35,242 nucleotides of DNA from Chlorobiales bacterium (GCA_014380515.1 JACMJS010000272.1:1-35242), one strand, 5' to 3'. Positions 7,001 to 24,509 are shown, numbered from the stretch's first letter. The notes: generated by a model from the letters alone, not told the origin. Numbers and translations are program-made.

Positions 7001-7115
7001 CCCCTCCTTGTTTTAAGGAGGGGCGCAGGGGTGGTGGTTCTTCGTTCAACCGCCCCGTCCTCGCGGACACCCCGCCTTGATTTGAGCTTGACGAAATAAA
7101 TTTCGTAAGGCGGGG
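7001..7115. repeat. Structured intergenic repeat, family A copy 3 (inner module flipped)
   Basis: This is a chain of hairpins between lptD and the heparinase-like gene. A 9-bp stem cccctcctt/aaggagggg (7001-7023) comes first. Then a small gtcc-tcgc-ggac hairpin (7057-7068). Last is a large arm pair ccccgcctt (7070-7078) / aaggcgggg (7107-7115) that encloses tttgagcttg and the inner hairpin acgaaa-taaa-tttcgt (7091-7106). The architecture matches the repeats at 12790 and 24415, but the outer arms differ in sequence and the inner module has the opposite orientation. Downstream sequence to 7169 shows nothing else. Confidence 0.75.
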
Positions 7116-7169
7116 AGTGTTGGTTCGTCGGGCGGTGTAAATAGATTCTGAAATTCTTGGGACAGTTTG

Positions 7170-9188
7170 TTAAAAGGTGAAGGTGGTGATGAAGGTCATG
7201 GTGCCAGTAAATTTTTTGCGGAAGCGTAGCACTTTGGCTTGCTCCGAGACCCCATAGCGGCGGGCGACCATGCCATCGGCGATGATAATATCTTCATCGG
7301 TGCGCTCAAAGTCAATTTCCACTTTCAGGCCGCTCGGTTTGTGCGTCAGATAGAGTTTGTTGTAAGAGGATTTCTCGACCTCCATTTCCGGCGCGAAGTG
7401 AAAGAAGAGTTCCGCGTTGTGCGTACCCTTGCCGTAGAGCCAGTCGGATACGACGAATTTATTTTTTTCCTTGTGCAGCGTGAAGGTGCGCCGGTGCGTG
7501 ATGGGTTGCGGCAGATGGGTGTAGGCATAATGCTCGGCCTCAAGCGTGCTTTGGTAACGGTCGTCTTCGAACAAAAGAATTTTCGGCGCGGTGCGATCGG
7601 CTTTGATTTTGAACGGGCCGTCAAATGCGGCGATCTCTTTATCGTCAATCATCACGCTGTTGTGCGCCTTGCCGCTGCGGAAATAGTTTCGAAGCATCGG
7701 GTCGGAAGTGTAGCAGTAGGTGCCGCTATCGATGACGATGTTCATGCCGTTTGCAAAGAGTTCGAACGAGAGCGTATCGTTGTGGCCGTGTCCGCCCCAG
7801 CCGCGTTTGCCCAATTCTCCGGCGTCAATCGTCGCCTGCGCCGCCGCGCTGCGTAGCACCACGAACTGACTTTCGGGAAAGCGAACCGATTGCAAGTTCA
7901 CTTTTACGCTGCGAAGTTTTTCAAACGTCTCGCGGCCATCCGTGCCCGTCAGCCACAGGGCTTGCTCCGAAAACTTTCCGCCCGCCGCCGCTTTGAACGC
8001 TCCGTTATTTAAGAGCACGGCGGCGGCGGCAAAGAGTGATGTGTGATTGTTGAAATCTTCGGCGCGGCTGAACCAAAACAATCGACCGTCGTCCGAGTCG
8101 CCGATGAGCGGTGCGGCGCCGTCGGGTTTGGTATAGCTTACGATGAACGTGATCATTTTCTCAAGCCGCTCGCGGTAGACGGGTGAAAACGGTTGCGCGT
8201 TCAAGTTGCCGAGGGCCATCGCGCTTAAAAACATTTCGGTTACGAGGCGGTGATAGGCGAAACTCATTTCGTAGTCGGCGCCGTCGGGATACGTCTGCGC
8301 GAGAATTTCGGTTTCTAAAATCCGTTTACCCTCCGCCATCCAACCCGCGCCTTCGGCGGTGTGCTTAAAAAAAATGCCGAGCATAAATAAACCCAAGGCG
8401 TCCGAGATCAGATGATTGCCGCTGCGACGGGTGTATTCGAGATTGGATTCGAGGTAAAGTCCGTGCTGGAAGAGCAGTTTCAGAAAGTTCATCCAAAAAG
8501 CGTCCGTCTCCGAAGGCTTGTCCTGATTGACATCGGCGGCGTCTTCATTGCAAAAAAAATAAAATCCGGCGATGAGGTTCATCGCGCGAAGGGCGACTTC
8601 CATCGGTACCATCCAATTGACGCCGAAGCAAAACGGATTTTCTTTTTCCCAATGCGACATGAGTTCGAAAAACTTTTCCTTGTAATGCGGCTGCCGCGTG
8701 AGCCAGTAACTTTTGCCGAGCGGCCAAACGAGACCGAACCGTGAAAGCTCCAGCGGCACTTTGACGTCCGTGCCTTCCGAGAGTTTGACATCCGCGCTGA
8801 ATGTTTTTTCATCAAGCCGCTTACCGGAAATAAAATCCAAATGCCAATCGATACGCTCACCGAACGAGTGCATCGGCGAGCCGAAGACGCTGAAGCGGTT
8901 TTGCATAATGTCGCCGGCCTCTTGCAGGGTCGCCTCCGGGAAGCCGAGTGATTTCATCTCACTCAAAAAAAATTCTTGACGATTGAGCGGACTGAAAAAA
9001 AAACTGTATCGCGTCTTGCTTCGAAACTCCGCGATGAACAGGCTTTCCGATTTTGCGGTGAAGCCCTGAAACGCTGCACGCAGTTCAGCCGTGCTCAAGG
9101 CTGCGATTTTTTGATACGACCATCGAAACCGGTTTTTTTTCCAGACTTGGTGAAGCAATACTTGGGCGTAAGTTTCGATCACAGGCAC
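7170..9188 (-). CDS. Heparinase II/III family polysaccharide lyase-like protein
   Basis: 672 residues with an N-terminal alpha-helical toroid (about 1-400) and a C-terminal beta-sandwich (about 430-672), as in heparinase II/III-like proteins. Recognisable motifs are SGNHLISDALGLF (about 256-268), YEMSFAYHRL (about 306-315), GGHGHNDTLSFEL (about 465-477) and GKAHNSVMIDD (about 506-516). The histidines and tyrosine are the likely catalytic and metal-site residues. There is no signal peptide, so the protein may be cytoplasmic. Relatives often lie in exopolysaccharide or O-antigen clusters and their substrate is rarely known. The start is GTG at 9188 (GTG at 9182 also possible), with an in-frame stop about 50 bases upstream. 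It shares direction with lptD, separated by a repeat element. Confidence 0.85.
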   Translation of the reverse strand: MPVIETYAQVLLHQVWKKNRFRWSYQKIAALSTAELRAAFQGFTAKSESLFIAEFRSKTRYSFFFSPLNRQEFFLSEMKSLGFPEATLQEAGDIMQNRFSVFGSPMHSFGERIDWHLDFISGKRLDEKTFSADVKLSEGTDVKVPLELSRFGLVWPLGKSYWLTRQPHYKEKFFELMSHWEKENPFCFGVNWMVPMEVALRAMNLIAGFYFFCNEDAADVNQDKPSETDAFWMNFLKLLFQHGLYLESNLEYTRRSGNHLISDALGLFMLGIFFKHTAEGAGWMAEGKRILETEILAQTYPDGADYEMSFAYHRLVTEMFLSAMALGNLNAQPFSPVYRERLEKMITFIVSYTKPDGAAPLIGDSDDGRLFWFSRAEDFNNHTSLFAAAAVLLNNGAFKAAAGGKFSEQALWLTGTDGRETFEKLRSVKVNLQSVRFPESQFVVLRSAAAQATIDAGELGKRGWGGHGHNDTLSFELFANGMNIVIDSGTYCYTSDPMLRNYFRSGKAHNSVMIDDKEIAAFDGPFKIKADRTAPKILLFEDDRYQSTLEAEHYAYTHLPQPITHRRTFTLHKEKNKFVVSDWLYGKGTHNAELFFHFAPEMEVEKSSYNKLYLTHKPSGLKVEIDFERTDEDIIIADGMVARRYGVSEQAKVLRFRKKFTGTMTFITTFTF

Positions 9189-9254
9189 GGCGGCTTTCGG
9201 TTTTTTAAAGTGTGGGAAAAGAATGCTTGCAGATCAGCGTGAGTTTTGGCATTT

Positions 9255-9419
9255 TTAGCCGCACCCATCACGCGGCAATGGCAACGCACCCAAATCTTTA
9301 CGGTCTTCAACGGTGATGACTTGCGTTTCAAGAACGCCGCTGAACACTTGCAAAGAAACGCAATCTTGACGCAAATCGAAACTGATTTGAAGAAGAGATG
9401 AAAAACTCCGGCAGTCCAC
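9255..9419 (-). CDS. Possible small ORF, 54 residues, unknown
   Basis: This reading frame lies between the heparinase-like gene and trpB. It opens with GTG directly after an in-frame TAG and ends at TAA (9255-9257). The translation starts [18 protein letters not shown] and ends [10 protein letters not shown]; codon choice looks like that of the neighbouring genes. The start would be 13 bases from the divergent trpB start, leaving little room for a promoter, so it may be a remnant or chance. I recognise no family. The remainder of the gap shows no clear signal. Confidence 0.25.
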
Positions 9420-9432
9420 CTATCCTATTTTT

Positions 9433-10713
9433 ATGATTGAATCTACTTCACTTTTATCCTCGCTGAACCCGATTAGCCCCGTAAAGACGCGGGCCTACGC
9501 CATGCCCGATGCGAGCGGACACTTCGGTATCTACGGCGGCAAGTTCGTGCCCGAAACGCTGATCAAAAATGCGGCGGACTTGGAAGCCGAATACACGGCG
9601 GCCAAACAAGACCGCGTGTTCTGGTCGGACTTTTACGACTTGCTCAAAAACTACGTCGGTCGCCCGACGCCGCTCACGTTCGCCAAACGCTTGACCACGG
9701 AACTTGGCGGCGCGAAAATTTATTTGAAGCGCGAAGATTTAAACCACACCGGCGCCCATAAAATCAACAACGCCATCGGACAAGTATTGCTCGCCAACCG
9801 CATGGGCAAACGCCGCATCATCGCCGAGACCGGCGCAGGCCAGCACGGCGTCGCTACCGCAACCGTCTGCGCGCTCTTCGGTTTGCAGTGCATCGTTTAT
9901 ATGGGCGAAGAAGACATGGCGCGTCAGGCACCGAACGTGGCGCGGATGAAACTCTTGGGCGCCGAAGTTAGGCCGGTCGGTAACGGCAGCCGAACCTTGA
10001 AAGACGCGACGAGTGAAGCGATCCGCGATTGGGTAACGAATCCCGACGACACGTTTTACATTATCGGCTCGGTCGTCGGGATGCACCCGTATCCGATGAT
10101 GGTGCGCGATTTTCAATCGGTCATCGGGCGCGAGACGCGCGAACAGTTTCTCGAAGCCGAAGGCCGGTTGCCGGATGTGATCATCGCGTGCGTCGGCGGC
10201 GGCTCGAACGCCATCGGGATGTTTCATCCGTTTCTCGAAGACGTGCTCGAACATACTTCCGGTGAAACGCGCGGTGAAAAAAAATTGCGGCTCATCGGCG
10301 TAGAAGCGGCGGGCGAAGGGCTGGATAAGCGGCACGCGGCGACGCTCACCAAAGGCAGGCCGGGCGTCTTGCACGGCGCGATGATGTATTTGCTGCAAGA
10401 CGCCGACGGACAAATCGATCTCGCCCATTCCATCTCGGCAGGGCTTGACTATCCGGGCGTCGGCCCCGAACATTCGCATCTGAAAGATTTGGGTTTGGTC
10501 GAATACACCTCGGCGACGGACAGCGAAGCCTTGCACGCCTTGAAACACTTGGCGCGAACCGAAGGAATTATTTGCGCGCTCGAGACCGCGCACGCCGTGC
10601 ATATTGCGATTCAAGAAGCGATGCGGTTGCAGGGTTCGCAGACGATTGTCATCAACGTTTCGGGACGCGGCGATAAAGACCTTGCGACCATCATGGAACA
10701 TATTGATCTATAG
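9433..10713 (+). CDS. trpB: Tryptophan synthase beta chain
   Basis: Catalyses the PLP-dependent condensation of indole with serine to tryptophan; cytoplasmic, and normally a partner of TrpA. The 426-residue protein carries a leader of about 25 residues before the usual start ([13 protein letters not shown]). The PLP lysine is in [15 protein letters not shown] (K110). The phosphate-binding GGGSNAIG is near 255-262, and [13 protein letters not shown] and [11 protein letters not shown] are also present. It resembles the common TrpB1 type. No trpA or other trp gene is next to it. A shorter start at an internal Met (residue 24) cannot be excluded. No Shine-Dalgarno is evident before the ATG. Confidence 0.95.
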
Positions 10714-10754
10714 ATTCGAACAGATTCGAACTGTGGATTCGAATCAGATTCAAA
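10713..10754. repeat. Four phased gattcgaa-type repeats downstream of trpB
   Basis: The octamer gattcgaa occurs at 10713-10720, 10723-10730 and 10737-10744, with a variant gattcaaa at 10747-10754. Start-to-start distances are 10, 13 and 11 bases, close to one helical turn. TTCGAA is itself palindromic. The first copy abuts the trpB stop codon, and the array ends about 100 bases before the histidine kinase start. It could be a regulator-binding array or a slippage product. Confidence 0.5.
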
Positions 10755-10851
10755 AATTTTTCCATTCAGGTTCTACTTATTTTTTTGTTCTCACTTTAAA
10801 AGGCAGTCCGAAACGTGATTGAAGCGGCGACGAACTTTACGATTTCAGAAC

Positions 10852-12246
10852 ATGACCACAGTCGTTTTCTCCCTCCTGAACCGTCTTTACAGCGTTGGCG
10901 ATGAAGCCGTTCATCCGCTCACGATTCGGTTTGGCAACGCCGAACTGGAATCGGAATTTCAGGCGGTACATTCGAAGAAGGCATTGACGGTGCTGCGCGT
11001 GTCGAAGTCGCTGAGCATTACGCTGTTTTGTCTGTTCGGATTTTGGGACCGCATCGCAATGCCGGAGTCTTTTTACTCGATCAGCCTCGTTCGCTTCGGG
11101 CTTATCATTCCTTTTTTACTGGCGATGTTTTTCGTTACCTACGCGGCGAACTACGGACGGTATATGCAATGGTCGCTGGTCGCCGGATTTTGGGCGGCGG
11201 GTGCGGGTTTGATTGCGATGATGGTCATCGAGCCACGGGTCGCCTTGCTCTACGGGTATCCGTCGCTGATGCTGGTTTTTCTTTTCACGCCCTTCGAGCG
11301 GTTACAAGCCGTGTATTCAGCCGTCATCTGCGTCCCGCTGACGCTGCTTTATCTTTTCGTCTCCGCTCTGTGGCTCAACCAACCGCCGACGCTCATTATC
11401 ACGCAAGGCGCGTTCGTCGTTACGGCGTGTCTGATCGGCATTATTATTTGTTATGTGCTGGAGCGATACGCCCGCACGGAGTTTGTTCAATCGCAATTGC
11501 TCGAACGCCGCAGCCGCGAACTTCACGAAGCCAACATGGCCTTGCGCGAAGCCAGCGATTTGAAAACGCAACTCTTGGGAATTGCCGCGCATGATTTAAA
11601 AAATCCGCTTTCGGCCATCATCAACTTCGCCGAACGTGCGCTCACTCATCTTGAAGAATCACCAATCAAGACCCGGCAGTCCGTATTGCTGGTTCAAGAC
11701 CTTTCGCACCGGATGCTGCATGTCATCGATCAATTGCTCAACACCACATCGATTGAAAGCGGCAGGGTTGAATTGCAAAAGCGGGTGATTGACATCGGGC
11801 AGCTCGCCAAAGTCATCGTCGCCGGATATGAATCGCACGCCGAGCAAAAGCATCAGAAGTTGGAAGTTACCGCCGAACCGAATTCGATTGTCGAAGGCGA
11901 TGAAGACCGCTTGCAGGAGGTGATCGAAAATCTTTTGAGCAATGCGTTGAAGTATTCGCCGCCGGAAAAAACCGTGCATATTGATGTAACCAGCGTCGGC
12001 GGTTGCGTGCGGCTTGAAGTGCGCGACGAAGGCTTGGGACTGACGCCGGACGATATGACCAAACTCTTCGGCAGGTTTCAGCGGCTCAGTGCGAGGCCGA
12101 CGGGCGGCGAATCATCGTCGGGCTTGGGACTTGCGATTGTTAAACAGTTGGTCGAGTTGCACAGCGGCAAAGTGTGGGCGGAATCGGCGGGCGAAGGCAA
12201 AGGCGCCACGTTCATTATCGAACTGCCCAAATATATTTCGAACTAA
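10852..12246 (+). CDS. Membrane sensor histidine kinase
   Basis: A 464-residue two-component sensor. The N-terminal region (about 45-205) has roughly six hydrophobic segments with little periplasmic sequence, so it may sense the membrane or an intracellular signal. A short coiled coil (about 210-235) leads to the HisKA domain, with phospho-acceptor His247 in IAAHDLKNPLSAI. The HATPase domain shows the N box (ENLLSNALKYS, about 359-369), G1 (RDEGLGL, about 391-397), the F-box region (KLFGRF) and G2 (GLGLAIVKQL, about 424-433). No response regulator is adjacent, so this is an orphan kinase. I prefer the ATG at 10852 to the in-frame TTG at 10819. Its 5' flank and 3' end both carry ttcgaa-type repeats. 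Confidence 0.9.
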   Translation: MTTVVFSLLNRLYSVGDEAVHPLTIRFGNAELESEFQAVHSKKALTVLRVSKSLSITLFCLFGFWDRIAMPESFYSISLVRFGLIIPFLLAMFFVTYAANYGRYMQWSLVAGFWAAGAGLIAMMVIEPRVALLYGYPSLMLVFLFTPFERLQAVYSAVICVPLTLLYLFVSALWLNQPPTLIITQGAFVVTACLIGIIICYVLERYARTEFVQSQLLERRSRELHEANMALREASDLKTQLLGIAAHDLKNPLSAIINFAERALTHLEESPIKTRQSVLLVQDLSHRMLHVIDQLLNTTSIESGRVELQKRVIDIGQLAKVIVAGYESHAEQKHQKLEVTAEPNSIVEGDEDRLQEVIENLLSNALKYSPPEKTVHIDVTSVGGCVRLEVRDEGLGLTPDDMTKLFGRFQRLSARPTGGESSSGLGLAIVKQLVELHSGKVWAESAGEGKGATFIIELPKYISN

Positions 12247-12261
12247 TTATTTCGAACTAAT
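12234..12261. repeat. Perfect 14-bp tandem duplication at the histidine kinase stop codon
   Basis: tatttcgaactaat occurs at 12234-12247 and again at 12248-12261. The first copy encodes the last residues (ISN) and stop of the kinase; the second repeats the same bases outside the gene. It shares ttcgaa with the repeats upstream of the gene. Confidence 0.7.
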
Positions 12262-12346
12262 CGAACGATGGATGGACGGAATCATTGATGAAGTTCGCTG
12301 GTTGTTCGGGCGGGGATTTTTCATTAACACTAAAACATTTTTCACC

Positions 12347-12778
12347 ATGTTTGATCTTCTTCAATACACTCAGGCGATTCAACAGATGCGCGACGAACTG
12401 ATTCATGTCGGCGTCAAGGAACTGCGGACGGCGGATGAAGTGTCAGCGATTTTGCCCGAAAGCAAAGGCACGACGCTGGTGTTCGTCAATTCCGTTTGCG
12501 GGTGCGCGGCAGGCAAAGCAAGACCGGGGTTTGCGATGTCGCTTCAGAACAACGTCGTGCCCGATCATCTTTACACCGTCTTTGCGGGTCAGGACAAAGC
12601 GGCGACCGAGGAAGCGCGCAAGTTTTTCACTGGCTATCCGCCGTCGTCGCCCAGCGTCGCCCTTTTGAAAGACGGCGAGCTTGTCGGCATGATCGAGCGA
12701 CGCCAGATCGAAGGCCGCAGCGCAAGCGACGTTGCACAGGATTTGAAATCGCTTTACAACAAGTTCTGCGCACAATGA
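12347..12778 (+). CDS. Bacilliredoxin (BrxA/BrxB, DUF1094 family)
   Basis: A 143-residue thioredoxin-fold protein of normal length for the YphP/YqiW family. The signature NSVCGCAAGKARPG holds the CGC active site (Cys51 and Cys53). It continues with HLYTVFAGQDKAATEEARKFF and PPSSPSVALLKDGELVGMIERR, both typical. Bacilliredoxins remove bacillithiol from oxidised protein thiols in the cytoplasm. Green sulfur bacteria are reported to make N-methyl-bacillithiol, which fits the inferred host. The frame is open upstream into the kinase gene, but the ATG at 12347 gives the family N-terminus. It follows the kinase by 100 bases and converges with the LptF/G-like gene, with a structured repeat between. 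Confidence 0.9.
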   Translation: MFDLLQYTQAIQQMRDELIHVGVKELRTADEVSAILPESKGTTLVFVNSVCGCAAGKARPGFAMSLQNNVVPDHLYTVFAGQDKAATEEARKFFTGYPPSSPSVALLKDGELVGMIERRQIEGRSASDVAQDLKSLYNKFCAQ

Positions 12779-12789
12779 TTTCTTTTTCA

Positions 12790-12866
12790 ACTCCCCCTCG
12801 CCCCCTCATTTGAGCCTGCCGAAACTGGTTTCGGATGAGGGGGTGTCCCGAAGGGACGGGGGCGTC
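12790..12866. repeat. Structured intergenic repeat, family A copy 1
   Basis: A 77-bp element between two convergent genes. Outer arms ccccctcat (12801-12809) / atgaggggg (12835-12843) enclose ttgagcctg and the inner hairpin ccgaaa-ctgg-tttcgg (12819-12834). A second small hairpin gtccc-gaa-gggac (12845-12857) follows. It is an inverted copy of 24415-24491, with about six differences over 77 positions, four of them in the inner hairpin loop region. It could act as a bidirectional terminator. Confidence 0.85.
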
Positions 12867-12883
12867 CAAAGCAGGAATCGATT

Positions 12884-13966
12884 TTACTTCTGCACTTTCC
12901 AGAGCAAGCCGATACCGGCGGCGAGGAAAATCACGTTCGGCAACCATGCTGCTACGAGCGGCGGAAGTTCATCTTTGTAGCCCAGCGTTGCAAAGACTTG
13001 TTGCACGCCGATGTATCCGAAACCCAACAGCAAACTAATGCCCGCCTCGAGCGCAAGACCGCTGCGTTTCTTGACCGATGAGAGCGGCACGCCGATCAGC
13101 ACCACGACCAAACATGCAAACGGAAATGAAATTTTTGTGTGGTATTTCACCGACGCTTCGCCGAGCGCGTCAAAGCCGCTTTGTTCCTTCGAGATGAGAA
13201 ACCGTCGGTGCTGCGGCAAGGTAAGTTGATCCAAAGCCGCATTGTTCTCGCGCAAGTCGGCGGCGGAAAACGACAGCGTGATCGTATCGGGCTGCGCGAA
13301 TACGGACAGCGAATCAACGAGGCGTTTTTCCAAAGTGCGGCCATAGACATTGTAAAGCACCCACTGTTTCAGCGAATCGTTATAGACCATACGTTCGGCA
13401 TCTAAACGCGACTGCAATGTTTTGCCTTCAAAGGTTTCGATGCTGACGTTGTAACACGTCCGGCTTTCGTCATCGAAGTACGACATCGTAACCATGCGGT
13501 TCGGGCTTTCCTGCGTGTTGAGGTTCGACCGGCTGCCGCTCGCCTGCCCTTTGCCCAACCGCTTGGCTTCGAAATCCGCTTTCGCTCGCGTCGCCGCAGG
13601 AACGACCCAACCGGAAAAATAAAAATCAATCGCCATGATAAGCAGCGTAGCGACGTAGAACGGCACGAGCATCCGGTACAAACTGATGCCGCCGGATTTC
13701 ATCGCGGTCAGTTCGGTTTGCTTCGTCAGTTGGCCGGTTACATAAAGCGAGGCGAGCAGCGTCGCCATCGGCGTGATAAGCTTGATAATTTCAGGCAGGA
13801 AGTAGAGATAGTATTCACCGATGATGAGCACGGACGATTTGCGGTCGACGAATTCATCAAGGCGCTCGATCAAATCGATGAGGATAAAAAGTGAGACGAA
13901 CGCGAGGATTGCAAAAAGAAACGTCGTCACAAATTGCCGCAGAATGTATCGATCCAAAATGTTCAT
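12884..13966 (-). CDS. LptF/LptG (YjgP/YjgQ) family LPS export permease
   Basis: A 360-residue inner-membrane protein. It has three N-terminal transmembrane helices (about 12-32, 52-72 and 95-115), a large periplasmic beta domain (about 120-260) and three C-terminal helices (about 270-355). The start MNILDRYILRQFVTTFLFA and the first-helix pattern are family hallmarks. With LptBC it would extract LPS from the inner membrane and pass it toward LptD, which is encoded 6 kb away. Only one permease gene is seen here; the family usually works as an LptF-LptG pair, and I cannot assign which one this is. I use ATG 13966; an upstream GTG at 13996 adds ten unconvincing residues. Confidence 0.88.
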   Translation of the reverse strand: MNILDRYILRQFVTTFLFAILAFVSLFILIDLIERLDEFVDRKSSVLIIGEYYLYFLPEIIKLITPMATLLASLYVTGQLTKQTELTAMKSGGISLYRMLVPFYVATLLIMAIDFYFSGWVVPAATRAKADFEAKRLGKGQASGSRSNLNTQESPNRMVTMSYFDDESRTCYNVSIETFEGKTLQSRLDAERMVYNDSLKQWVLYNVYGRTLEKRLVDSLSVFAQPDTITLSFSAADLRENNAALDQLTLPQHRRFLISKEQSGFDALGEASVKYHTKISFPFACLVVVLIGVPLSSVKKRSGLALEAGISLLLGFGYIGVQQVFATLGYKDELPPLVAAWLPNVIFLAAGIGLLWKVQK

Positions 13967-13999
13967 CAGACGTTTATTTTTTAATGGCCGATACACGTA

Positions 14000-14053
14000 C
14001 GTAGGGGCGACAGCGAGTTTAGCGAGCTACCGCTACGACGCCTCGCCCCTACG
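14000..14053. repeat. gtaggggc inverted-repeat element, family B copy 1
   Basis: A perfect 11-bp terminal inverted repeat cgtaggggcga (14000-14010) / tcgcccctacg (14043-14053) with a 32-base interior. It lies between the SPFH gene and the LptF/G-like gene, both leftward. The left half matches the element at 23588 closely. Confidence 0.8.
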
Positions 14054-14077
14054 ACGATGAATAATATTTTTTCCGTT

Positions 14078-14986
14078 TTACTTTTCGCCGATCATCACGG
14101 ATGCGCCCGCGCCTTTGCCACCCATGAAAATCACTTTCGAGTTGGGCGACTTGGCCAGTTCCTGCATCGCTTTGATTTGTTCATACTGCAACTGCTTGTC
14201 GGTCAGCGAGAGACTGACAATGCGTTGGTAATCCGCGATGCCCTGCGCCTCGACCCGCTTGCGTTCAGCTTCCTGCTGCTCCTTCTGCAACACGAACTGC
14301 ATCTTCTGCGCGTCTTGCTCGGCGTTGATCTTCGATTCAATCGTCGCCCGCACCGACGCAGGCAGCGTGATGTTGCGGACGAGCAACTGTTCTAAAAACA
14401 ACCCGCGATCTTTAAAGTCTTTTTCAATCGTCTTGAAGATGCGGCCTTGAAACTCATCGCGCTTCGCCGAATACAAATCGACGGCGTTGTAATAGACCGA
14501 GTTGTCGCGGATTTTCGTGCGCGTGATCGGGCGCACCAACACATCGCGGTAGCCAACACCCACTTCTCGCAAAAGCCGCGGGGCTTCGGTCGGAATGACG
14601 CGGTAAAGCACGGTGAGATCGACGGCGACTTCCAAGCCGTCGGCGGAAAGGACGCGGATGGCGTCGTCGCCTTCTTTGTCGCCTTCGTTGGCTACGCCCG
14701 ACATCGTGTAGTTCTGCGTCTTGGTATCGAACTTGACGACTTCGACGAGCGGATTGACGAGCGTGAGGCCTTCGTTCAAGACGTCGGGTTGAACTTGTCC
14801 GAACAGTTTTTTAACGCCGACGTTGCCGGTTTCAATCTGCTTGACGCTGGCGAAGAGAAGTCCGCCAAGCACGACGAGCACGCCGCCGAGTTTGAACAGG
14901 TTGCCGAGCCGCTCCAGCGACGGGTTTATGGAGCGACCGAAAAATCCGATGGCGAGTAATACCAAACCAATAAATATGATGGACAT
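14078..14986 (-). CDS. Prohibitin-like SPFH/band 7 protein
   Basis: 302 residues. Two hydrophobic segments near the N-terminus (about 2-20 and 30-47) anchor the protein. The SPFH domain follows (about 48-215) with GNVGVKKLFGQVQPDVLNEGLTLVNPL and LTVLYRVIPTEAPRLLREVG. A charged coiled coil (about 220-275, KEQQEAERKRVEAQGIADY) comes next, and the C-terminus is Gly-rich (GGKGAGAS). This matches bacterial prohibitin homologues, which form large membrane-bound rings thought to organise membranes or protect membrane proteases. No FtsH or NfeD partner is next to it. It is transcribed leftward, away from the crtC-like gene, with about 360 bases between. Confidence 0.9.
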   Translation of the reverse strand: MSIIFIGLVLLAIGFFGRSINPSLERLGNLFKLGGVLVVLGGLLFASVKQIETGNVGVKKLFGQVQPDVLNEGLTLVNPLVEVVKFDTKTQNYTMSGVANEGDKEGDDAIRVLSADGLEVAVDLTVLYRVIPTEAPRLLREVGVGYRDVLVRPITRTKIRDNSVYYNAVDLYSAKRDEFQGRIFKTIEKDFKDRGLFLEQLLVRNITLPASVRATIESKINAEQDAQKMQFVLQKEQQEAERKRVEAQGIADYQRIVSLSLTDKQLQYEQIKAMQELAKSPNSKVIFMGGKGAGASVMIGEK

Positions 14987-16684: not shown

Positions 16685-16760
16685 TCGCCATCCGGCGCAC
16701 AACTCATAACTTTTAGTCGCGGGCGCAATCACAAACGCATCCGCAAGGAGATTTAAAACA

Positions 16761-17324
16761 ATGAACATTGTTCAGGGACAGTACGAAACCTCGCGGCGGT
16801 TGGAAGTGCTTTCGGGTGAAGATCAGCAGCGGCGCAATGTGTTGGATGAATCCCAAAAAGGAATCGTCGAGCACAACAACGGACAGGGCGCGGAAACGAA
16901 CCGCCGCGGTTTCCTCGGAAAAATAGTAGCCGCGCTCGGCGCGCTGTTCGGCTTGTCGGTGATCTATCCGATTGCGCGATACATCTATCCGCCCGATAAA
17001 AAAGTGGTCGAAGAAAACGCGGACTCCGCCGTCGTTGGCAAACTGGCCGAGCTAGCTCCGAACACGGCGAAGAATTACAAGTTCAACGGCAAAGCGGTGT
17101 TCGTGCTCAATCAGGGCAACGAAACCTTGGCGGCGATGTCGGCGGTGTGCACGCACTTGGGCTGCAACGTCGCGTGGAAGAGCGATGAGAAAGTCGTCTT
17201 CTGTTCCTGCCACGGTGCTCGCTACGATCTCGAAGGCAAAAAAATCAGCGGGCCGCAACCGGCGGACTTGCAGCCTTACACCGCCAAGGTGCAGGACGGC
17301 AACATTGTTATTTCAAAAGCATAA
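16761..17324 (+). CDS. petC: Rieske iron-sulfur subunit of the bc/b6f-type complex
   Basis: 187 residues. After a cytoplasmic N-terminal extension of about 45 residues comes a Tat-like NRRGFLGK motif and one transmembrane helix (about 52-75). The Rieske domain follows, with CTHLGC (130-135) and CSCHGA (148-153). Cys130, His132, Cys148 and His151 would bind the 2Fe-2S cluster, and Cys135-Cys150 would form the disulfide. It takes an electron from quinol at the Qo site of cytochrome b. AAGGAG lies 10 bases before the ATG. petB follows after 60 bases on the same strand, clearly an operon. The long N-terminal extension before the anchor resembles Chlorobi Rieske proteins as I remember them. Confidence 0.95.
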   Translation: MNIVQGQYETSRRLEVLSGEDQQRRNVLDESQKGIVEHNNGQGAETNRRGFLGKIVAALGALFGLSVIYPIARYIYPPDKKVVEENADSAVVGKLAELAPNTAKNYKFNGKAVFVLNQGNETLAAMSAVCTHLGCNVAWKSDEKVVFCSCHGARYDLEGKKISGPQPADLQPYTAKVQDGNIVISKA

Positions 17325-17384
17325 TTTCATTTCGCAATCGTTTTCAGGAGTAACTTTCAAAACATAATCACAGCAAGGATTGAT

Positions 17385-18542
17385 ATGGCAGACCTTATTG
17401 CAAAATTGCGGCAAGGCGTTCAGGGCATCGGAGGATTCAGCATCAACAACTGGCTCAGCGAGCGCATCGATGTGCTCGCGCCCGTCATGGCCTACATGGG
17501 CAAGAAAAGCGTGCCGCAACACCGCGCGTCCATCTGGTACTATTTCGGCGGCCTCACGCTTTTCTTTTTCGTCATCCAAATTCTCACCGGCGGTTTGCTG
17601 CTTTTTTATTACAAGCCGACCGAGCAAGCCGCGTTTGAATCCTTCGTCTACATTCAAAAGGAAGTGCCGTTCGGCTGGTTGATGCGGCAGATGCACAGCT
17701 GGTCGGCCAACCTCATGGTGCTGATGATGTTCATCCATATGTTCAGCGCGTATTTTATGAAGGCGTATCGCAAGCCGCGCGAACTGATGTGGCTCACCGG
17801 ATTTATTCTGTGCCTGCTCACGATTGGCATGGGCTTCACGGGTTATTTGCTGCCGTGGAATCAATTGGCCTACTTTGCGACCAAGATCGGTATGGGCGTT
17901 GCGGGCGAAGCTCCGGGCGGACAGATCATCGCCAACATTCTGCAAGGCGGCCCGGACGTTTCCGGCGAAACCCTGACGCGGATGTTCAGCCTGCACGTCG
18001 TGCTTTTGCCGGGCATTATTCTGCTCGTGCTTTCCGCGCATTTGCTGTTGATGCAAGTGCTCGGTACATCGACGCCGATTGGCTACAAGGAGCAAGGCTT
18101 GGTCAAAGGCTCAGAGCCGTTCTTCCCGAACTTTTTGATGAAGGATTTCATCGGCTGGATGATCGGGTTTGCCCTTTTGATTTTCCTTGCGGTGATGTAT
18201 CCGTGGGAGATCGGTGAGAAAGCGGATGCGCTCGGCGTGCCCGCACCGGACATCAAACCGGAGTGGTATTTGTGGGCGCAGTTCCAACTGCTGAAGGATT
18301 TCGCGTTCATCGGCGATTGGCATTTTCTGCCGGAAGTGCTGCGTGAAAAATTACCGTCGCTGATTCCGATCACGTTCTTCGGCATCATGACCGTGCTGTG
18401 GGGCATCGTGCCGTTCATTGATCGCAAGGCGTCGCTTGAGCAAAAGAGTCCGATGTACACCATTTTCGGATTGCTCACGCTCGGATTTTTCCTTGTGCAA
18501 ATCGCCCGCGTGTTCGTCTGGACGCAGGGGTTCAAGCACTAA
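17385..18542 (+). CDS. petB: Cytochrome b of a Rieske/cytochrome b complex
   Basis: 385 residues, a fused protein covering b6 plus subunit IV-like helices. Haem ligands are His104/His118 (13 residues between) and His204/His219 (14 residues between); the 14-residue spacing in the fourth helix is typical of the b6 type. The Qo motif reads PEWY (292-295). The cysteine that holds the extra c-type haem in cytochrome b6 aligns with Tyr53 (IWYYFGG), so that haem is probably absent. No cytochrome c1 or f gene follows; instead there is a terminator, as expected for green sulfur bacteria. An AAGGA site lies 5 bases before the ATG. It drives quinol oxidation and proton transfer at the cytoplasmic membrane. 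Confidence 0.95.
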
Positions 18543-18566
18543 CGCATAAAGCCATTTATTCTTTTT

Positions 18567-18610
18567 CAGAAGCCGCTCCGTCCTGCGTGGAGAGCGGCTT
18601 CTGCGGTTTT
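18567..18610 (+). terminator. Rho-independent terminator of petC-petB
   Basis: A 12-bp stem cagaagccgctc (18567-18578) / gagcggcttctg (18592-18603) with a 13-base loop is followed by cggtttt. It begins 25 bases after the petB stop and closes the operon without room for a cytochrome c gene. Confidence 0.8.
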
Positions 18611-18714
18611 AAACCATCCGACTTTATATTCCCAACAAGGTTTTCAATCAAACTTTCAACGGGCATGTCCTGCCGTTGCGGTTAAGTTCCGCTTCAATTG
18701 CTCTCTGCGGTTTC

Positions 18715-20823
18715 ATGCAAGAAAATTCACCCGCTCCGTTTCTATTCACCTTACCCGCCGGACTTATCACGCTGGGACTTGATGCTGCGCTTCGGGCGGC
18801 GGCGGATGATTACGACCGTGTGGATGTGCTCAACGATTTCTCGCAAAAGTTTTGGTACATCAACGCTCAACATGCGTTGCACTACGCCGAAGCCGCTCGC
18901 AGCCTTGCCGAAACACTTGACTACCGTGAAGGTCTGGCCATCAGTCTTTTTTATATCGGCACCTCGCAATGTATGCTCTCCGATTATACTGAGGCTACCC
19001 AGCACCTTCGGACATCACTCCACGTTTTCGAATCGGTCGGTGATCTACCGCGTCAGGCACGGGTTTGCAATCAACTGGGACTTGCCTTCGATCAGCGCGG
19101 CCTGTTTGCCGACGCCCTCAAGATTTATTTCCAAGGCGTATCGTTTGCCGAATTGAGCGGCGAAGGATTTATGCGGGCGACATTGCTTGACAGCATCGGA
19201 ACGGTTTACAGAAACTTGGGCGACCTATCCGCCGCTCTTAAATATTATCTCGAAGGTTTAGCGTTCGTCGAATCAGGCGAGGCTTCGCCGGGCGCAGAGA
19301 TGCTGACTTGCGCGTTAGCCAATAACATCGGTTCGGTGCAACAGGACTTGGGAAACTTCACCGGCGCGTTGGAGAACTACCTGCGCAGCCTTCGCCTCGC
19401 CGAACAACAGGGCAACCGCATTACCGAAGCCGCCACGCTCAATAACATCGGCGAGATTTATGAACAGCTCGGCGATAAAGGCAGCGCGCTGCGGTACTTT
19501 CTACGCAGCGTCAAGTTGAAAGCAAGTCTCGGCAGCAAACATGCGGAAGCCTATTCGCTTTTCAACATCGCCCGCCTCTACGAAAGTTTGGGCGACGATG
19601 CGAGTGCTCGCGGTTACTACGAACGCAGTTTCAAGCTGCGCGAAGACGCCCGCGACAAAATCGGCTTGATCGAAACACGGCTTGCGCTCGGCGAATGGTT
19701 TTTGCGGGCGGGCGATCTTTCGGAAAGTTTGTTGCATCTCAACCTTGCGGCCTTAACGCTAACGGACGATACGCCGTCGCCTTTGCGGGCGCAAGCACAC
19801 TTGCGACTTTCAAACGCCTATGAGCGACACCGCGATCCGGCGAAGCGGATACAGCATCTGGCCGCACACCGCGAGGCGGCGGGCATCGCCCTGCGCGAAC
19901 GCAACGCCGCCGAAGCCAAACGCATGATGACGCTGTTCGAACTCGCCGCCGCGAAGCGCGAAGCTTTAGAACTTGGATTGAGCAGTGAAGACCTCGCTCA
20001 GGTTCACCTTGCCTCCGAACGCGCCGCCGAACTTCGTGATGCGCCGCAAGCAACGAACGAGGAACTCCCGATCGAGCACGTTGAAGTAAAAACTTTCGGC
20101 GTGTTCAGCGTTCGCATCGGCGGACGTGAAATTTCCAAAGAGGCGTGGCAGCGCAAAAAAACCCGCGATGTCTTTAAAGTTCTTTTGCTCCGCTACCGCC
20201 AAGCCGTAACGACCGACGAACTCTGCGACTTGCTCTATCCCGACGCCGCCACGAAAAACGTTGAACCCGCCCTTCTCAACGCCGTTTCATTCCTACGCAA
20301 AGCTCTTGAACCTGATCTCGAACCGCGCAAGCCCTCGCGCTACCTGCGTCAGCACGACCGTACATACACGCTGGACTTGGGCGAGTTGGCCACCGTCGAT
20401 TTTCTGGAGTTCAAAAAACATCTTGCAACCGCCAAAACCCTGAGTGATGCCGGTGTCCGCAGGTCGCAGTATGAAAAGGCGATTTCCATTTACGCCGGTG
20501 AATTTCTCAAAGAGGATTTGTATGAAGAATGGTCTGCTTACGAACGCGAAACATTGAAAGAATTTTATCTCACGGCCTTACGCACGCTTGCGGAAGATGA
20601 CGCCCGTCATGGCCGCATCGATGCCGCCCTCGTGCAGACCCAACAACTGCTCGCCACCGACCCGACCGACGAAGCCGCCTACGATTTCGCCCTCGCCCTT
20701 CTCACCACGCATCACCGCCTCGCCGATGCGAAGAAACTTTATAAGCGGTGCGTCGCCGCGTTTCAAAAAGAATACGGCACGCCGCCGCCCGTCCGCTTGC
20801 AACACTACCTCGGCTCCCGCTAA
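18715..20823 (+). CDS. TPR-repeat protein with SARP/BTAD-like DNA-binding C-terminus
   Basis: About 702 residues. The N-terminal two thirds (about 45-390) is a run of tetratricopeptide repeats, several with the same beginning (LANNIGSVQQDLG, TLNNIGEIYEQLGD, LFNIARLYESLGDD). The C-terminal part starts with VKTFGVFSVRIGGREIS (about 458), a winged-helix of OmpR/SARP type, with KKTRDVFKVLLLRYRQAVTTDELCDLLYP as the helix region. A bacterial transcriptional activation domain follows (about 560-702, FLEFKKHLATAK to EYGTPPP). This order is reversed relative to classical SARP-TPR regulators. It is probably a transcription factor controlled by a protein or ligand bound to the TPRs. I prefer ATG 18715 to the TTG at 18676. 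The target is unknown; the adjacent secreted-protein genes are candidates. Confidence 0.85.
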   Translation: MQENSPAPFLFTLPAGLITLGLDAALRAAADDYDRVDVLNDFSQKFWYINAQHALHYAEAARSLAETLDYREGLAISLFYIGTSQCMLSDYTEATQHLRTSLHVFESVGDLPRQARVCNQLGLAFDQRGLFADALKIYFQGVSFAELSGEGFMRATLLDSIGTVYRNLGDLSAALKYYLEGLAFVESGEASPGAEMLTCALANNIGSVQQDLGNFTGALENYLRSLRLAEQQGNRITEAATLNNIGEIYEQLGDKGSALRYFLRSVKLKASLGSKHAEAYSLFNIARLYESLGDDASARGYYERSFKLREDARDKIGLIETRLALGEWFLRAGDLSESLLHLNLAALTLTDDTPSPLRAQAHLRLSNAYERHRDPAKRIQHLAAHREAAGIALRERNAAEAKRMMTLFELAAAKREALELGLSSEDLAQVHLASERAAELRDAPQATNEELPIEHVEVKTFGVFSVRIGGREISKEAWQRKKTRDVFKVLLLRYRQAVTTDELCDLLYPDAATKNVEPALLNAVSFLRKALEPDLEPRKPSRYLRQHDRTYTLDLGELATVDFLEFKKHLATAKTLSDAGVRRSQYEKAISIYAGEFLKEDLYEEWSAYERETLKEFYLTALRTLAEDDARHGRIDAALVQTQQLLATDPTDEAAYDFALALLTTHHRLADAKKLYKRCVAAFQKEYGTPPPVRLQHYLGSR

Positions 20824-21079
20824 CCTCCCGCAAGTTACTTCGCGCTTGTTGCGACATCTCCGCGATATCTCCGGTGTTTCAAAAATCTTGATGCACTCGC
20901 CACAGGCCATGCGCAAAAAAAATTTGACGTTTTCAGCATCGCTTCGGCATCGCCCGCAAATGGTGAGAAGACGGTGAGTGCGGTTTTGCATCTTGCCCCC
21001 ATCAACACGATCTGTCAAACGATCCATCACACAGCCAATCGCAATGCACATTTCAATTCACATCAAACGCTTTATCGCC

Positions 21080-21442
21080 ATGAAAATTTTACTCGTCCTC
21101 ATCGGGCTTCTTGCGATCTCTTTCGGTTCCGCATCGGCACAAAAGAAAGGCGATGTTTCCGGCACGTATCAAACCGACTTCGGCGTGCTGACGCTCTCGC
21201 AAAGCGGCACGGCAGTTACCGGCTCGTATTCTTATCCGGGGCCGGACGGCAAGCCCGTCGCGGGGTCGCTCACTGGTACGCTCAAAGGCAAAGGCTTAAA
21301 GTTCACTTGGGAACAGCAGCAGGGCGAAGGTAAATCGGGCGGCGACGGTCAATTTGTTTTCGCGGCGGGCATGAAGAGTTACAAAGGCACGTGGAGCGAC
21401 ATGAAAGGTCAATCGGGAAAGTGGTCGGGTACTCGCAAATAA
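21080..21442 (+). CDS. Small secreted beta-rich protein, unknown function
   Basis: 120 residues with a clear signal peptide (MKILLVLIGLLAISFGSASA, cleavage before QKKG). The mature part is a run of short beta strands with Gly turns (GTYQTDFGVLTLSQSG, GSYSYPGPDGKPVAGSL, YKGTWSD) ending in SGKWSGTRK. The layout resembles a half lipocalin-like barrel of the kind seen twice in the protein at 23747. The open frame extends upstream to 20978, but the ATG at 21080 gives the signal peptide and is preferred. About 256 bases separate it from the SARP-like gene, with no other feature evident there. The function is unknown; periplasmic or surface location is inferred. Confidence 0.7.
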   Translation: MKILLVLIGLLAISFGSASAQKKGDVSGTYQTDFGVLTLSQSGTAVTGSYSYPGPDGKPVAGSLTGTLKGKGLKFTWEQQQGEGKSGGDGQFVFAAGMKSYKGTWSDMKGQSGKWSGTRK

Positions 21443-21510
21443 AAAAAGCGGCAGCCCTGTTTTTCGTGCAACCGCGCCATCCGTAAGCCTTTCCAAATTT
21501 GAACCGCGAA

Positions 21511-21720
21511 ATGCGTCAGACTTATATCCTTCGGCTTACGGCGGCGACATCGGAATCACCACGCGGCCCGAATGTTTCGATCTCGCTGCGACGCATCGCA
21601 ACCGGCGAGCAGATGACGTTTCAAAATCTTTCGGAACTCGCCGCCTATCTGGAGAAGCAAGCGGATAGCGGGCGGGTGCCGGAATGTCCGCCGCCTTTCG
21701 GACCGGACGTAAAATTTTAA
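21511..21720 (+). CDS. Small hypothetical protein
   Basis: 69 residues, acidic to neutral, without signal peptide or membrane segment. The core TYILRLTAATSES, SLRRIATGEQMTF and NLSELAAYLEKQ suggests two or three strands followed by a helix, a pattern I have seen in short uncharacterised bacterial proteins that end in a helix of the form S-L-E-E-L-x-x-Y-L. ATG 21511 is used; a TTG at 21499 would add four residues. It lies 68 bases after the secreted protein on the same strand and could be co-transcribed. No function can be given. Confidence 0.5.
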   Translation: MRQTYILRLTAATSESPRGPNVSISLRRIATGEQMTFQNLSELAAYLEKQADSGRVPECPPPFGPDVKF

Positions 21721-21839
21721 TGCTGTACATCTTTACAAGGTTGTTCTTTGCGAGCCTTGCCGCAGGTGCGAAGCGGGGTTTTACCATCGCCGGAGCGCCG
21801 GTTTCTAAGAGGGAAATTTCGCGGCAATAAAGAGTAACG

Positions 21840-21872
21840 CGGCTTGCCAAATCAGGGTGAAGCGGCAAGCCG
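21840..21872. repeat. Hairpin upstream of the secreted-protein pair
   Basis: A 9-bp perfect inverted repeat cggcttgcc (21840-21848) / ggcaagccg (21864-21872) with a 15-base loop. It is followed by gttgctttaaaaag rather than a T run, so it is a poor terminator. It sits about 80 bases before the gene at 21951 and could be a leader structure. Confidence 0.4.
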
Positions 21873-21950
21873 GTTGCTTTAAAAAGTCTTGTTTTCTTTT
21901 TCAATCAACGATTCACTCACACATCACTTAAATCCTAAACGGGGATCAAC

Positions 21951-22994
21951 ATGAAAAAAAATATTTCGATTTTCGCGCTGCTGCTCATGCTTACAGCCTC
22001 AGCCTTCGCTCAAGTCCCGCAAACGCTTTCCTACCAAGGCATCTTGACGGACGCCGCAGGCAATCCGGTTGCCAACGGCATGCACACGGTGATCTTCGAT
22101 TTTTATCCGCTTGAGTCCGGCGGCTCGGCGGATTTCAGTATTGGACCGATCAATGTATCGACGAACAAAGGTTTGTTCACCACGCTCTTGGGCAACATTC
22201 CTGATTCACTCGGCAAGAAGCAATACTATGTCGGCATTATCGCTGACGGTGAAGTGCTCGCGCCGCGGATTACGCTCTCGAGCGTGCCTTACGCGCTCAA
22301 GGCACTTACGGCTTCAACGGTCGCATTGCCGCTCAGGGGTGTGGGCATATTTAATAGCTCCACAACAAGTGATGGCTATAGATCATCGGTTGTTACCGGC
22401 ATCAATGTAGCGAACGGGGTACCTGACGGAAATGCAGCCGGTAATGGTCTTTATGGTGAAACAGCTTCAGCAGCCTTCGGAGCGAGTCAATATGCAGGCG
22501 TGCAAGGCCGCAGCACCGCAGCAACGTTCGGCTTCGGCGTTTCCGGTTCAGCTGCTGGTACAGGCTCGGCGGGCGTCTACGGTTCAAGCGACAACAACGG
22601 CGTTTATGGTTACACCAGCAACGGCGCAGGCGTTCGCGGCAAAACCGTCGGCACAGGCGCGGCGGTGGTCGCGGAAGGCAACGGCGCGACTTCGCTCGAA
22701 ATCAATAACGGCGCGCTTAAAGTCAGCGGCGCGGCCAAAACCGCGTTCAAGCACGAAGCCGTTATAGCAAACACAATCGGCAACTATACGGTGATCGATA
22801 ACCCACTGTGCAACGGCGACCCGAACGCGATTATCATTGTAACCCACAACTACAACCGTCCAAGCGGCGGTACATCATACCTCAACAAAGCATTCGGAGT
22901 GTATTACGCCATCGGGCAATGGCGCATCTATTTGGAAGATCAAGCGACGTCCATTGTTGATCAGGCGTTCAATGTGCTCATCATTAAACAATAA
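21951..22994 (+). CDS. Secreted Gly-rich surface protein, first of a two-gene pair
   Basis: 347 residues with a signal peptide (about 1-20). The first domain (about 21-120) has the pattern TLSYQGILTDAAGNPVANG, then VIFDFY and SVPYALKA, widespread at the N-terminus of secreted proteins of Bacteroidota, Chlorobiota and Ignavibacteria. The middle (about 128-260) is rich in Gly, Ala and Ser with short beta repeats (AGVYGSS, NGVYGYT, AGVRGKT), as in tail-fibre-like stalks. The C-terminal 60 residues (NAIIIVTHNYNRP, FGVYYAIGQWRIYLED, FNVLII) look like a compact beta domain found in other secreted proteins. It has no type IX sorting domain itself; the next gene, 30 bases downstream, has one. A structural or adhesive role is inferred. 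Confidence 0.7.
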   Translation: MKKNISIFALLLMLTASAFAQVPQTLSYQGILTDAAGNPVANGMHTVIFDFYPLESGGSADFSIGPINVSTNKGLFTTLLGNIPDSLGKKQYYVGIIADGEVLAPRITLSSVPYALKALTASTVALPLRGVGIFNSSTTSDGYRSSVVTGINVANGVPDGNAAGNGLYGETASAAFGASQYAGVQGRSTAATFGFGVSGSAAGTGSAGVYGSSDNNGVYGYTSNGAGVRGKTVGTGAAVVAEGNGATSLEINNGALKVSGAAKTAFKHEAVIANTIGNYTVIDNPLCNGDPNAIIIVTHNYNRPSGGTSYLNKAFGVYYAIGQWRIYLEDQATSIVDQAFNVLIIKQ

Positions 22995-23024
22995 CCCGCC
23001 ACCACACTTTAACCGGAGACACTG

Positions 23025-23573
23025 ATGAACAAAATATATTTTCCCGCTTTTGCACCGATGCGATTTTTCCTAACGCTCGTGATGCTGCTTGTGATCACTT
23101 GCAAGGTATCCGCGCAGCAAATTCCGTTTCAAACGTTCAGCACCGCAGGCGGACAATCCGTAACCAGCGGCACGCGCACACTTCACGGCGCGTTCGGACA
23201 AAGTTTTGCGGGCGGCGGAGTCGGTTACGGCGCGGGCTTCTACAGTTTTCAAGGCACCAGCTTGATGCTCGATGTGCCCGTGTTCAGTCCCACCGGCGCG
23301 GGCAAGCCGCAGCGGTTTGAACTGCAACAGAACTATCCGAACCCGTTCAATCCATCGACGACGATTGCCTACGCGGTCGCCAAAGGAGGCGACGTCTCGC
23401 TGAAAGTTTACGATGTGCTGGGACGCGAAGTAATGACGCTCGTCAGCGGACGCCGCGAGGCCGGACGCTACGCCGCGCGGTTTGATGCCAGCCGGTTTTC
23501 ATCGGGCGTGTATTTCTACAAGTTCACTTCCGCAGCATTTACCGAAACGAAAAAGATGATGCTCGTCAAATAG
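23025..23573 (+). CDS. Small secreted protein with type IX secretion (type A) sorting domain
   Basis: 182 residues. A long signal peptide (about 1-30, ending VSAQQ) precedes a short domain (about 31-76) with the pattern GGQSVTSGTRTLHGAFGQSF and GYGAGFYSF, a motif common in surface proteins. The rest is a T9SS C-terminal domain (about 98-182): NYPNPFNPSTTI (about 103-114), VSLKVYDVLGREVMTLV (about 124-140), SSGVYFYKF and KKMMLVK. The domain routes the protein across the outer membrane and is usually cleaved. The passenger is unusually short. The ATG is preceded by ccggagac. It lies 30 bases after the gene at 21951, so the two are probably co-transcribed. Family B repeat and a terminator follow. 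Confidence 0.85.
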   Translation: MNKIYFPAFAPMRFFLTLVMLLVITCKVSAQQIPFQTFSTAGGQSVTSGTRTLHGAFGQSFAGGGVGYGAGFYSFQGTSLMLDVPVFSPTGAGKPQRFELQQNYPNPFNPSTTIAYAVAKGGDVSLKVYDVLGREVMTLVSGRREAGRYAARFDASRFSSGVYFYKFTSAAFTETKKMMLVK

Positions 23574-23587
23574 GCATTCTCTATGTC

Positions 23588-23638
23588 GTAGGGGCGATAG
23601 CGAGGTTACGAGTTGACGCTCTGTGGCCTCTCCCCTAC
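23588..23638. repeat. gtaggggc inverted-repeat element, family B copy 2
   Basis: gtagggg (23588-23594) and cccctac (23632-23638) bound a 51-base element. Its left end cgtaggggcgatagcgag is nearly the same as that of copy 1 (cgtaggggcgacagcgag). It lies just after the T9SS cargo gene and 22 bases before a terminator. Confidence 0.75.
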
Positions 23639-23660
23639 AATGGTCGTTTTCACTTCGGGT

Positions 23661-23695
23661 GCGGCGTCAGAAATGGCGTCGCCCTTTTTTATTTT
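23661..23695 (+). terminator. Terminator with AGAAAT loop, copy 1
   Basis: The stem gcggcgtc (23661-23668) / ggcgtcgc (23675-23682), with two G-T pairs, closes on the loop agaaat. It is followed by cc and then ttttttatttt. It should end the 21951-23573 transcript. The loop and much of the stem recur at 24510. Confidence 0.7.
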
Positions 23696-23746
23696 AGGCG
23701 GCCTTGAAAGAGAATCGTTTTTTTAAACATCAAACTTTTTTCGAGT

Positions 23747-24406
23747 ATGAAACTCTCTTCACTTTTCTTCGCTGCGATGCTCGTGTGCTTGGAGCCGCTT
23801 CCGGTTGTCGATGATGTTGCAGGAACATGGAACATCACCGATGCAAAACTGTTGGGCGGAAATTCTTATACCGGCACGGTCGCCATCGCTAAGCAAGGCA
23901 GTGTCCACAACGGACTCTATAACATCGATTGGAAAACGTCCGCCGGAGACTATTCGGGCTTGGGATTTCATCAGGACGGCGAACTCTTTATCGGTTGGGG
24001 CACGAAGGATTACGGCGTCGTGCTCTACACCATTGGCAACGGCACCTTGGACGGACAATGGACGGGGACGGACATGCAGAACAGCATTGCAACCGAACAA
24101 GCGGGCGGCGGCACGGCGGGGAAAGTTGAAGGGACTTACAAAGTCAGCGGCAAACATTTGAACGGGGCATACAAAGGCACGCTCGTGATCACAAAAACCG
24201 GCGAGGTGTATCAACTGAAGTCTACCATCGATGGCGGAAAGTCCGTTACCGGCGTGGGTTTGCGGTCGGGCGATAAACTGGCGGTCGGCTGGGGCATCGG
24301 CGGTGGGTTCGGCGTGGTGCATTATACTTTCAACGGCAAAACCGCCACAGGCCAATGGGCGTTGCCGAACGAAAGCAAACTCGGCACGGAAAATCTGAAG
24401 CGATAG
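23747..24406 (+). CDS. Secreted protein made of two tandem beta domains, unknown
   Basis: 219 residues. A short N-terminal hydrophobic stretch (about 5-19) is probably a signal peptide. The rest is an internal duplication: residues about 25-115 and 128-219 share the order GTW/GTY, YTGT/YKGT, I-K-G-V, then FIGWGTKDYGVVLYT / AVGWGIGGGFGVVHYT and LDGQW/ATGQW. Each unit looks like a small lipocalin-like or half-barrel sheet. A single-unit relative may be encoded at 21080. No sorting domain or lipobox is seen, so it is likely periplasmic. The gene has its own terminators on both sides, which suggests separate transcription. The start ATG at 23747 follows an A-rich region. Confidence 0.7.
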   Translation: MKLSSLFFAAMLVCLEPLPVVDDVAGTWNITDAKLLGGNSYTGTVAIAKQGSVHNGLYNIDWKTSAGDYSGLGFHQDGELFIGWGTKDYGVVLYTIGNGTLDGQWTGTDMQNSIATEQAGGGTAGKVEGTYKVSGKHLNGAYKGTLVITKTGEVYQLKSTIDGGKSVTGVGLRSGDKLAVGWGIGGGFGVVHYTFNGKTATGQWALPNESKLGTENLKR

Positions 24407-24414
24407 AATCGTCC

Positions 24415-24491
24415 GACGCCCCCGTCCCTTCGGGACACCCCCTCATCCGAAATTTATTTCGGCAGGCTCAATGGAGGGGGCGAGGGGGAGT
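24415..24491. repeat. Structured intergenic repeat, family A copy 2
   Basis: 77 bp, the reverse complement of the element at 12790 with about six differences. Parts in order: gtccc-ttc-gggac hairpin (24424-24436), outer arm ccccctcat (24438-24446), inner hairpin ccgaaa-ttta-tttcgg (24447-24462), caggctcaa, and an outer arm that matches only in part (24472-24480). It lies between the tandem-domain secreted protein and zwf, 18 bases before a terminator. Confidence 0.85.
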
Positions 24492-24509
24492 TTGTTTCGA
24501 ACACGCCTC

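Follow-up and report, generated by a model that had tools for sequence, protein, structure and literature searches.

The window, the whole 35,242-nt stretch of DNA analysed here, corresponds to contig C352 of a 3.57-Mb assembly (420 contigs, 97% complete). It encodes an ORF6N-domain protein resembling phage antirepressors (26803-27348, E 2e-34) amid an otherwise housekeeping region, and a domain scan detected a T9SS sorting domain, which would fit an origin in the Bacteroidota/Chlorobiota area. Reading of the window sequence located the three palindromic elements reported in an earlier note, in which we saw the gtcc hairpins, outer arms, TTGAGC-TG stretch and inner CGAAA...TTTCG hairpin (Table 1); this architecture is confirmed by sequence and folds alike. 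The elements are of two kinds, designated C1 (12789-12866 and 24415-24492) and B (7049-7120). The earlier note had described a pair of copies of one element and a further copy with changed arms. Both exist, but the pair consists of the 12789 and 24415 copies, which share 92% identity in opposite genome orientations, and the changed copy is 7049-7120. Missing from that description were the left half of the 124-bp inverted pair to which the 7057 element belongs as the right half (6997-7120, DNA fold z -5.75, with about ten similar inverted pairs elsewhere in the genome), a fourth window copy at 26120-26173 (core covariance model, E 2e-5; RNA fold z -5.6), the roughly 55 copies across the genome, and many host palindromes without the module. 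The arms of the 24415 copy pair at 7 of 9 positions, and the folds of the three elements are stronger than those of dinucleotide shuffles (RNA z -1.9 to -4.8, DNA z -2.9 to -5.8).

Table 1. Palindromic elements of the window and their parts.
Feature	Position	Strand	Basis or remark
AB composite, inverted pair of palindromic units, REPIN/BIME-like	6997..7120	+	sequence; similar pairs elsewhere
Unit A, aact-CCCCTCCTT-gtttt-AAGGAGGGG-cgca-GGGGTGG, empty loop	6997..7039	+	sequence and fold
Unit B, loop filled by inner module in minority (flipped) orientation	7049..7120	-	sequence
gtcc hairpin linker of unit B	7057-7068		sequence
Arms of unit B, ccccgcctt/aaggcgggg	7070-7078/7107-7115		9/9 positions paired
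Inner module TTGAGCTTGACGAAATAAATTTCGT	7082..7106	+	stem 7091-7096/7101-7106; covariance-model match E 2.8e-15 (window)
C1-type element, aactccccctcg + arms + gtcc hairpin + gggggcgtc	12789..12866	+	RNA fold z -4.2
Arms of this C1 element	12801-12809/12835-12843
gtcc hairpin of this C1 element	12845-12857
Inner module TTGAGCCTGCCGAAACTGGTTTCGG in its loop	12810..12834	+	covariance-model match E 5e-18
C1-type element, same inner orientation as 12789-12866	24415..24492	-	opposite genome orientation to 12789-12866
gtcc hairpin of the 24415 copy	24424-24436
Inner module TTGAGCCTGCCGAAATAAATTTCGG in its loop	24447..24471	-	covariance-model match E 3e-19
Module variant TTGAGCGTTAGCGAAACAAGTTTCGC within the loop of another palindrome, TGTCATTCCCGC/GCGGGAATGACA	26120..26173	-

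The outer units follow the form aact-CCCC-arm-loop-arm'-GGGG-linker-GGGG-(t/c)ggttg, in which the linker is cgca in A and the gtcc hairpin in B and C1; A and B are often joined as an inverted pair. C1 elements run from aactccccctcg through the arm ccccctcat or a near variant, the 25-bp module, atgaggggg and the gtcc hairpin to gggggcgtc. The inner module (TTGAGCYTG + CCGAAA-N4-TTTCGG) is optional within the outer palindromes; in it, a 6-7-bp stem with a short loop comes after the near-invariant, unpaired TTGAGCYTG. On contigs C194 and C414 (L134, L146), the gtcc hairpin of the B unit is itself enlarged in its loop by further palindromes (catcccgctcaatgcgggat...).

Across the 3.57-Mb genome, a covariance model of the core returned 55 matches at E<0.01, and DNA searches with single copies returned 38 and 55. 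The outcomes that would have refuted the earlier note, no further copies or arms that no longer pair, did not occur, as many additional copies with pairing arms exist. The exact inner-module pattern occurred 35 times here, compared with no more than two occurrences per genome among 296 others of the phylum, all from outside its own family, and zero or one time with control patterns. With one mismatch allowed, 37 matches were obtained versus none for the reversed control, and the exact arm palindrome gave 21 matches in each direction, some of which overlap at a single locus, versus none for its control. The dispersed family is not a product of chance. Beyond single stray matches, the module was not found in 60 genomes of the same order, nor was the outer AB pair found in 97 other genomes of the order, except for two short partial matches. 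Four exact module matches in GTDB contigs and four in viral contigs had no matching arms and look like chance. Searches turned up neither an Rfam family nor a relative, and a literature search for the motif sequences found no repeat paper.

Using a home-made gene caller on the stretches around matches and counting tandem copies separately, we placed 34 of the 58 scored matches between co-directional genes, at a median distance of ~50 nt from the upstream 3' end, seven between convergent genes (including 12789-12866) and two between divergent genes. Seven others fell inside an ORF call, of which at least two are genuine while some are probably over-extended starts, and eight were undetermined. 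Such a distribution matches that of REPs, which are mostly extragenic and close to gene 3' ends (PMC3733652).

A position close behind stop codons, together with strong folds and inner-stem covariation, would also suit a structured 3' UTR regulatory RNA, such as an mRNA stabiliser, attenuator or processing site, with its fold under selection. We consider this function, raised in the earlier note, improbable: no Rfam covariance model matched, the elements stand in both orientations relative to genes and in empty and filled forms, the window reveals no common gene class, and the 60 same-order genomes do without the family beyond their stray matches. The seven convergent cases would be compatible with bidirectional intrinsic terminators, the other function proposed there, but most copies lie between co-directional genes, and a scan of the 7057 and 12790 cores reported no T-tract behind either; the adjacent A hairpin alone has a weak T run behind it. 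As a general account, termination is therefore very hard to credit.

The module behaves as a guest of hairpin loops. Its hosts include the loops of A, B, C1, ctcccc-type and TGTCATTCCCGC palindromes, one of them apparently unrelated. Exact C1 arms enclose an empty 3-6-nt loop at 11 loci and the module at seven; among AB pairs, the module occupies loop A in C233, C238 and C399, loop B in C87, C126, C194, C270, C374, C414, C415 and the window copy at 7057, and neither loop in some. The TGTCATTCCCGC palindrome recurs elsewhere in the genome, its pairs enclosing either small loops or the same variant module, TTGAGCGTTAGCGAAACAAGTTTCGC. The sequences flanking the module pair at -9 kcal/mol or below in 74% of copies, compared with 10% of random sites; several of the non-pairing copies have an enlarged or tandem loop, so that the fixed 25-nt cut misses the right arm. 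Tandem module copies with a 23-25-bp unit were found in C194, C253, C374 and C414, and the loop of the module itself contains another palindrome (TCAGCC..GGCTGA) in C48, C407, C415 and C420. Two armless, in-frame copies lie inside related histidine kinase genes (G000:C126:33487 and G000:C382:3280), where the module encodes DAIEPAEMNFGG, within HATPase_c in the one kinase scanned; the two copies probably reflect one insertion before gene duplication. Module subtype follows the host, with ACG..CGT in A and B, CCG..CGG in C1 and GCG..CGC in the TGTCATTCCCGC host.

We scored module orientation ourselves by noting on which side of TTGAGC the gtcc hairpin lies. The hairpin lies 3' versus 5' of the module at 7:1 in B, 6:6 in C1 and 1:4 in the ctcccc subfamily, and thus both orientations (14 versus 11 copies) recur in three outer subfamilies, in agreement with the earlier proposal that the module has been inverted with respect to its outer surroundings. 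In 7049-7120 the gtcc hairpin stands on the other side of the module than in C1, and the flip is therefore real; it is the 7057 copy whose inner stretch is reversed relative to its outer arms and gtcc hairpin. Its module, 7082-7106, is the sole B exception, the other seven filled B units having the opposite inner orientation, and it is letter-identical to the unflipped B copies in C87, C194, C374 and C414, which favours a single inversion in place. In C1, the unpaired bases next to the module turn along with it; inversion of the stretch from arm to arm would have this effect.

We think it probable that these elements are lineage-specific, non-autonomous, REP/BIME-like selfish palindromic repeats whose loops have been inverted in place by template switching during replication. 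A non-autonomous, dispersed palindromic element is also, of the classes offered in the earlier note, the best fit. Under this explanation the outer hairpins would be selfish non-coding DNA scattered through the genome, for the most part shortly behind genes, and the ~25-bp module a second, smaller palindromic unit, an unpaired tag with a covarying stem, living in their loops. Copies would be mobilised as single-stranded hairpins, with a Y1/HUH-type or other transposase acting in trans. The flip would arise in place if replication changed from one arm of an extruded hairpin to the other as template and took the loop sequence from the opposite strand, which would explain the changed but still paired arms together with the reversed inside and would need no invertase. 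For rRNA hairpins and a microRNA, loop inversion by template switching, accompanied by compensatory stem changes, has been inferred (PMC8794818). The inverted loops in the rRNA cases are mostly 4 nt and at most 7-8 nt long (PMC8794818), whereas the inverted loop here measures ~25 nt, which counts against template switching. Also counting against our preferred explanation, no Y1/RAYT gene (PF01797) was matched in the organism's own 97%-complete assembly, and the presumed mobiliser is therefore missing. PF01797 is present in 39 of the 61 genomes of the set, and Y1 is common in other families of the order; the Y1-transposase loci of related families had no common palindrome nearby. The module was also considered as the right end of an IS605/TnpB element, a candidate rejected because the apparent right end of the single TnpB element (C172), inspected by eye, is another hairpin (cctacgcttttaagcgtaggTCAAT). 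Separately, a decayed module copy was observed directly after the stop codon of the genome's only TnpB gene (G000:C172:26761-27055).

The main rival treats the module as a tiny mobile unit that enters the single-stranded loops of palindromes in either orientation, so that the flip merely records the polarity of insertion. Independent insertion in both orientations would give the same C1 pattern. Occupancy of several palindromes' loops alongside empty ones, the further palindrome in the module's own loop and the armless copies in the two kinase genes all fit such nested insertion, and REP dimers within palindromes have been described (PMC3733652, section 7). On the other hand, the correspondence between module and host subtypes implies few captures, after which the host and its module were mostly spread together, and the 7:1 polarity in B is difficult to reconcile with entry in either direction. 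We further know of no enzyme for module insertion, which counts against this alternative, and we hold it to be possible but doubtful. A more novel, and in our estimate unlikely, proposal is that the ~25-nt tag-plus-hairpin is an independent mobile element that targets the single-stranded loops of extruded palindromes, including its own, thereby building hairpin-in-hairpin stacks, and that it continues to change orientation within the population.

These repeats bear on the origin and diversification of REP-type palindromes and on the way in which their arms stay perfectly paired. Since empty, filled, tandem, doubly nested and inverted hairpins occur in one genome, the template-switch and loop-insertion models become directly testable. 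Under the template-switch model a single replication error would yield both the compensated arms and the inverted loops; compensated arms by themselves do not prove selection on an RNA fold.

Less well supported is the earlier note's claim that the changed but paired bases suggest selection for the fold, since covariation is strong in the inner stem but modest in the outer arms. Among 26 aligned copies, 98.9% of inner-stem cells were paired, a value reached by no shuffle, and 17 cells carried double changes versus 5.7 in shuffles (0 of 500 as good). Pair counts from 43 sequences, two of which look like chance matches, indicated the same covariation, with CG 24, AT 12 and GC 4 at the outer pair, CG 38 and TA 3 at the second pair, and TA 25 and CG 16 at the loop-closing pair. 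Nearly all copies have paired outer arms, but pairing is almost as good when arms are exchanged among copies (44 of 1000 shuffles as good), a modest margin that arises because nearly all arms are C-runs facing G-runs. The outer arms are therefore weak evidence for selection; they were not modelled as pairs in the covariance model because a single alignment cannot hold all arm registers. Template switching, moreover, can create compensated stems without selection (PMC8794818), which further weakens the claim.

In several respects the family resembles the GTAG and CGTC REPs, the BIMEs of E. coli and the REPINs of Pseudomonas, which are dispersed palindromes of 20-40 nt, mostly extragenic near gene 3' ends, with inverted pairs and variable loops (PMC3733652, PMC3116915). 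As high-copy extragenic palindromes that often form inverted pairs, the present repeats are REPs or BIMEs in the broad sense. Unlike those systems, the outer units carry no GTAG or CGTC tag, the genome has no RAYT, and the loop holds a separate module in either orientation. No GTAG stands at the hairpin foot; the unit ends are aact../..ggttg, and the tag of the module is the unpaired TTGAGCYTG. The inverted doublet, which is the unit of spread in REPINs, is represented by about ten AB pairs, alongside C1 units that spread as singles, in a genome lacking a RAYT. By the definition of CGTC-type REPs used here (CGTC/TGTC tag, 8-9-bp stem starting AT, CCA tail), the host at 26120 has TGTC and the ATTCCCGC stem, with a tail that is GACA or absent; from its sequence, the TGTCATTCCCGC palindrome appears to resemble this type. 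Of the features of a MITE derived from a classical IS (terminal inverted repeats, a target-site duplication and a parent IS), inverted ends are present (aactcccc..ggggagtt), and no target-site duplication was noticed by eye.

Variable REP loops and palindromes nested in palindromes have been described (PMC3733652, sections 5 and 7). A likeness exists to the REP dimers within palindromes of A. variabilis (GTAG-15), T. roseum (GTAG-23) and H. neapolitanus (CGTC-1) (PMC3733652, section 7). A. variabilis and H. neapolitanus yielded no empty host copies (PMC3733652), whereas here empty and filled forms coexist, with several hosts and three nesting levels. New against the REP literature compared is the presence together, in one genome, of loops that are empty, filled, tandem, doubly nested or inverted, with a conserved 25-nt module common to several host palindromes. 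REP palindromes are also the preferred targets of IS1397, IS621, ISKpn1 and ISPpu9 (PMC1525189), which, unlike the present repeats, are full transposons with their own transposase. The in-frame DAIEPAEMNFGG insert in the histidine kinases recalls the Rickettsia palindromic elements, although only two related genes are involved here. Nostoc, of a different phylum, reportedly contains small dispersed repeats (SDRs) that form 21-27-nt hairpins with compensatory changes and nested insertions; the likeness is one of description.

A second dispersed palindrome family, TGTCATTC-TGAGCGNNAGCGAA-GAATC...GAATGACA, was observed at L110, L129, L135, L145 and other sites, and has a TGAGCG..GCGAA loop motif in common with the present repeats. 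The exact TGTCATTC-type pattern matches 82 viral-contig stretches, and that family is therefore widespread.
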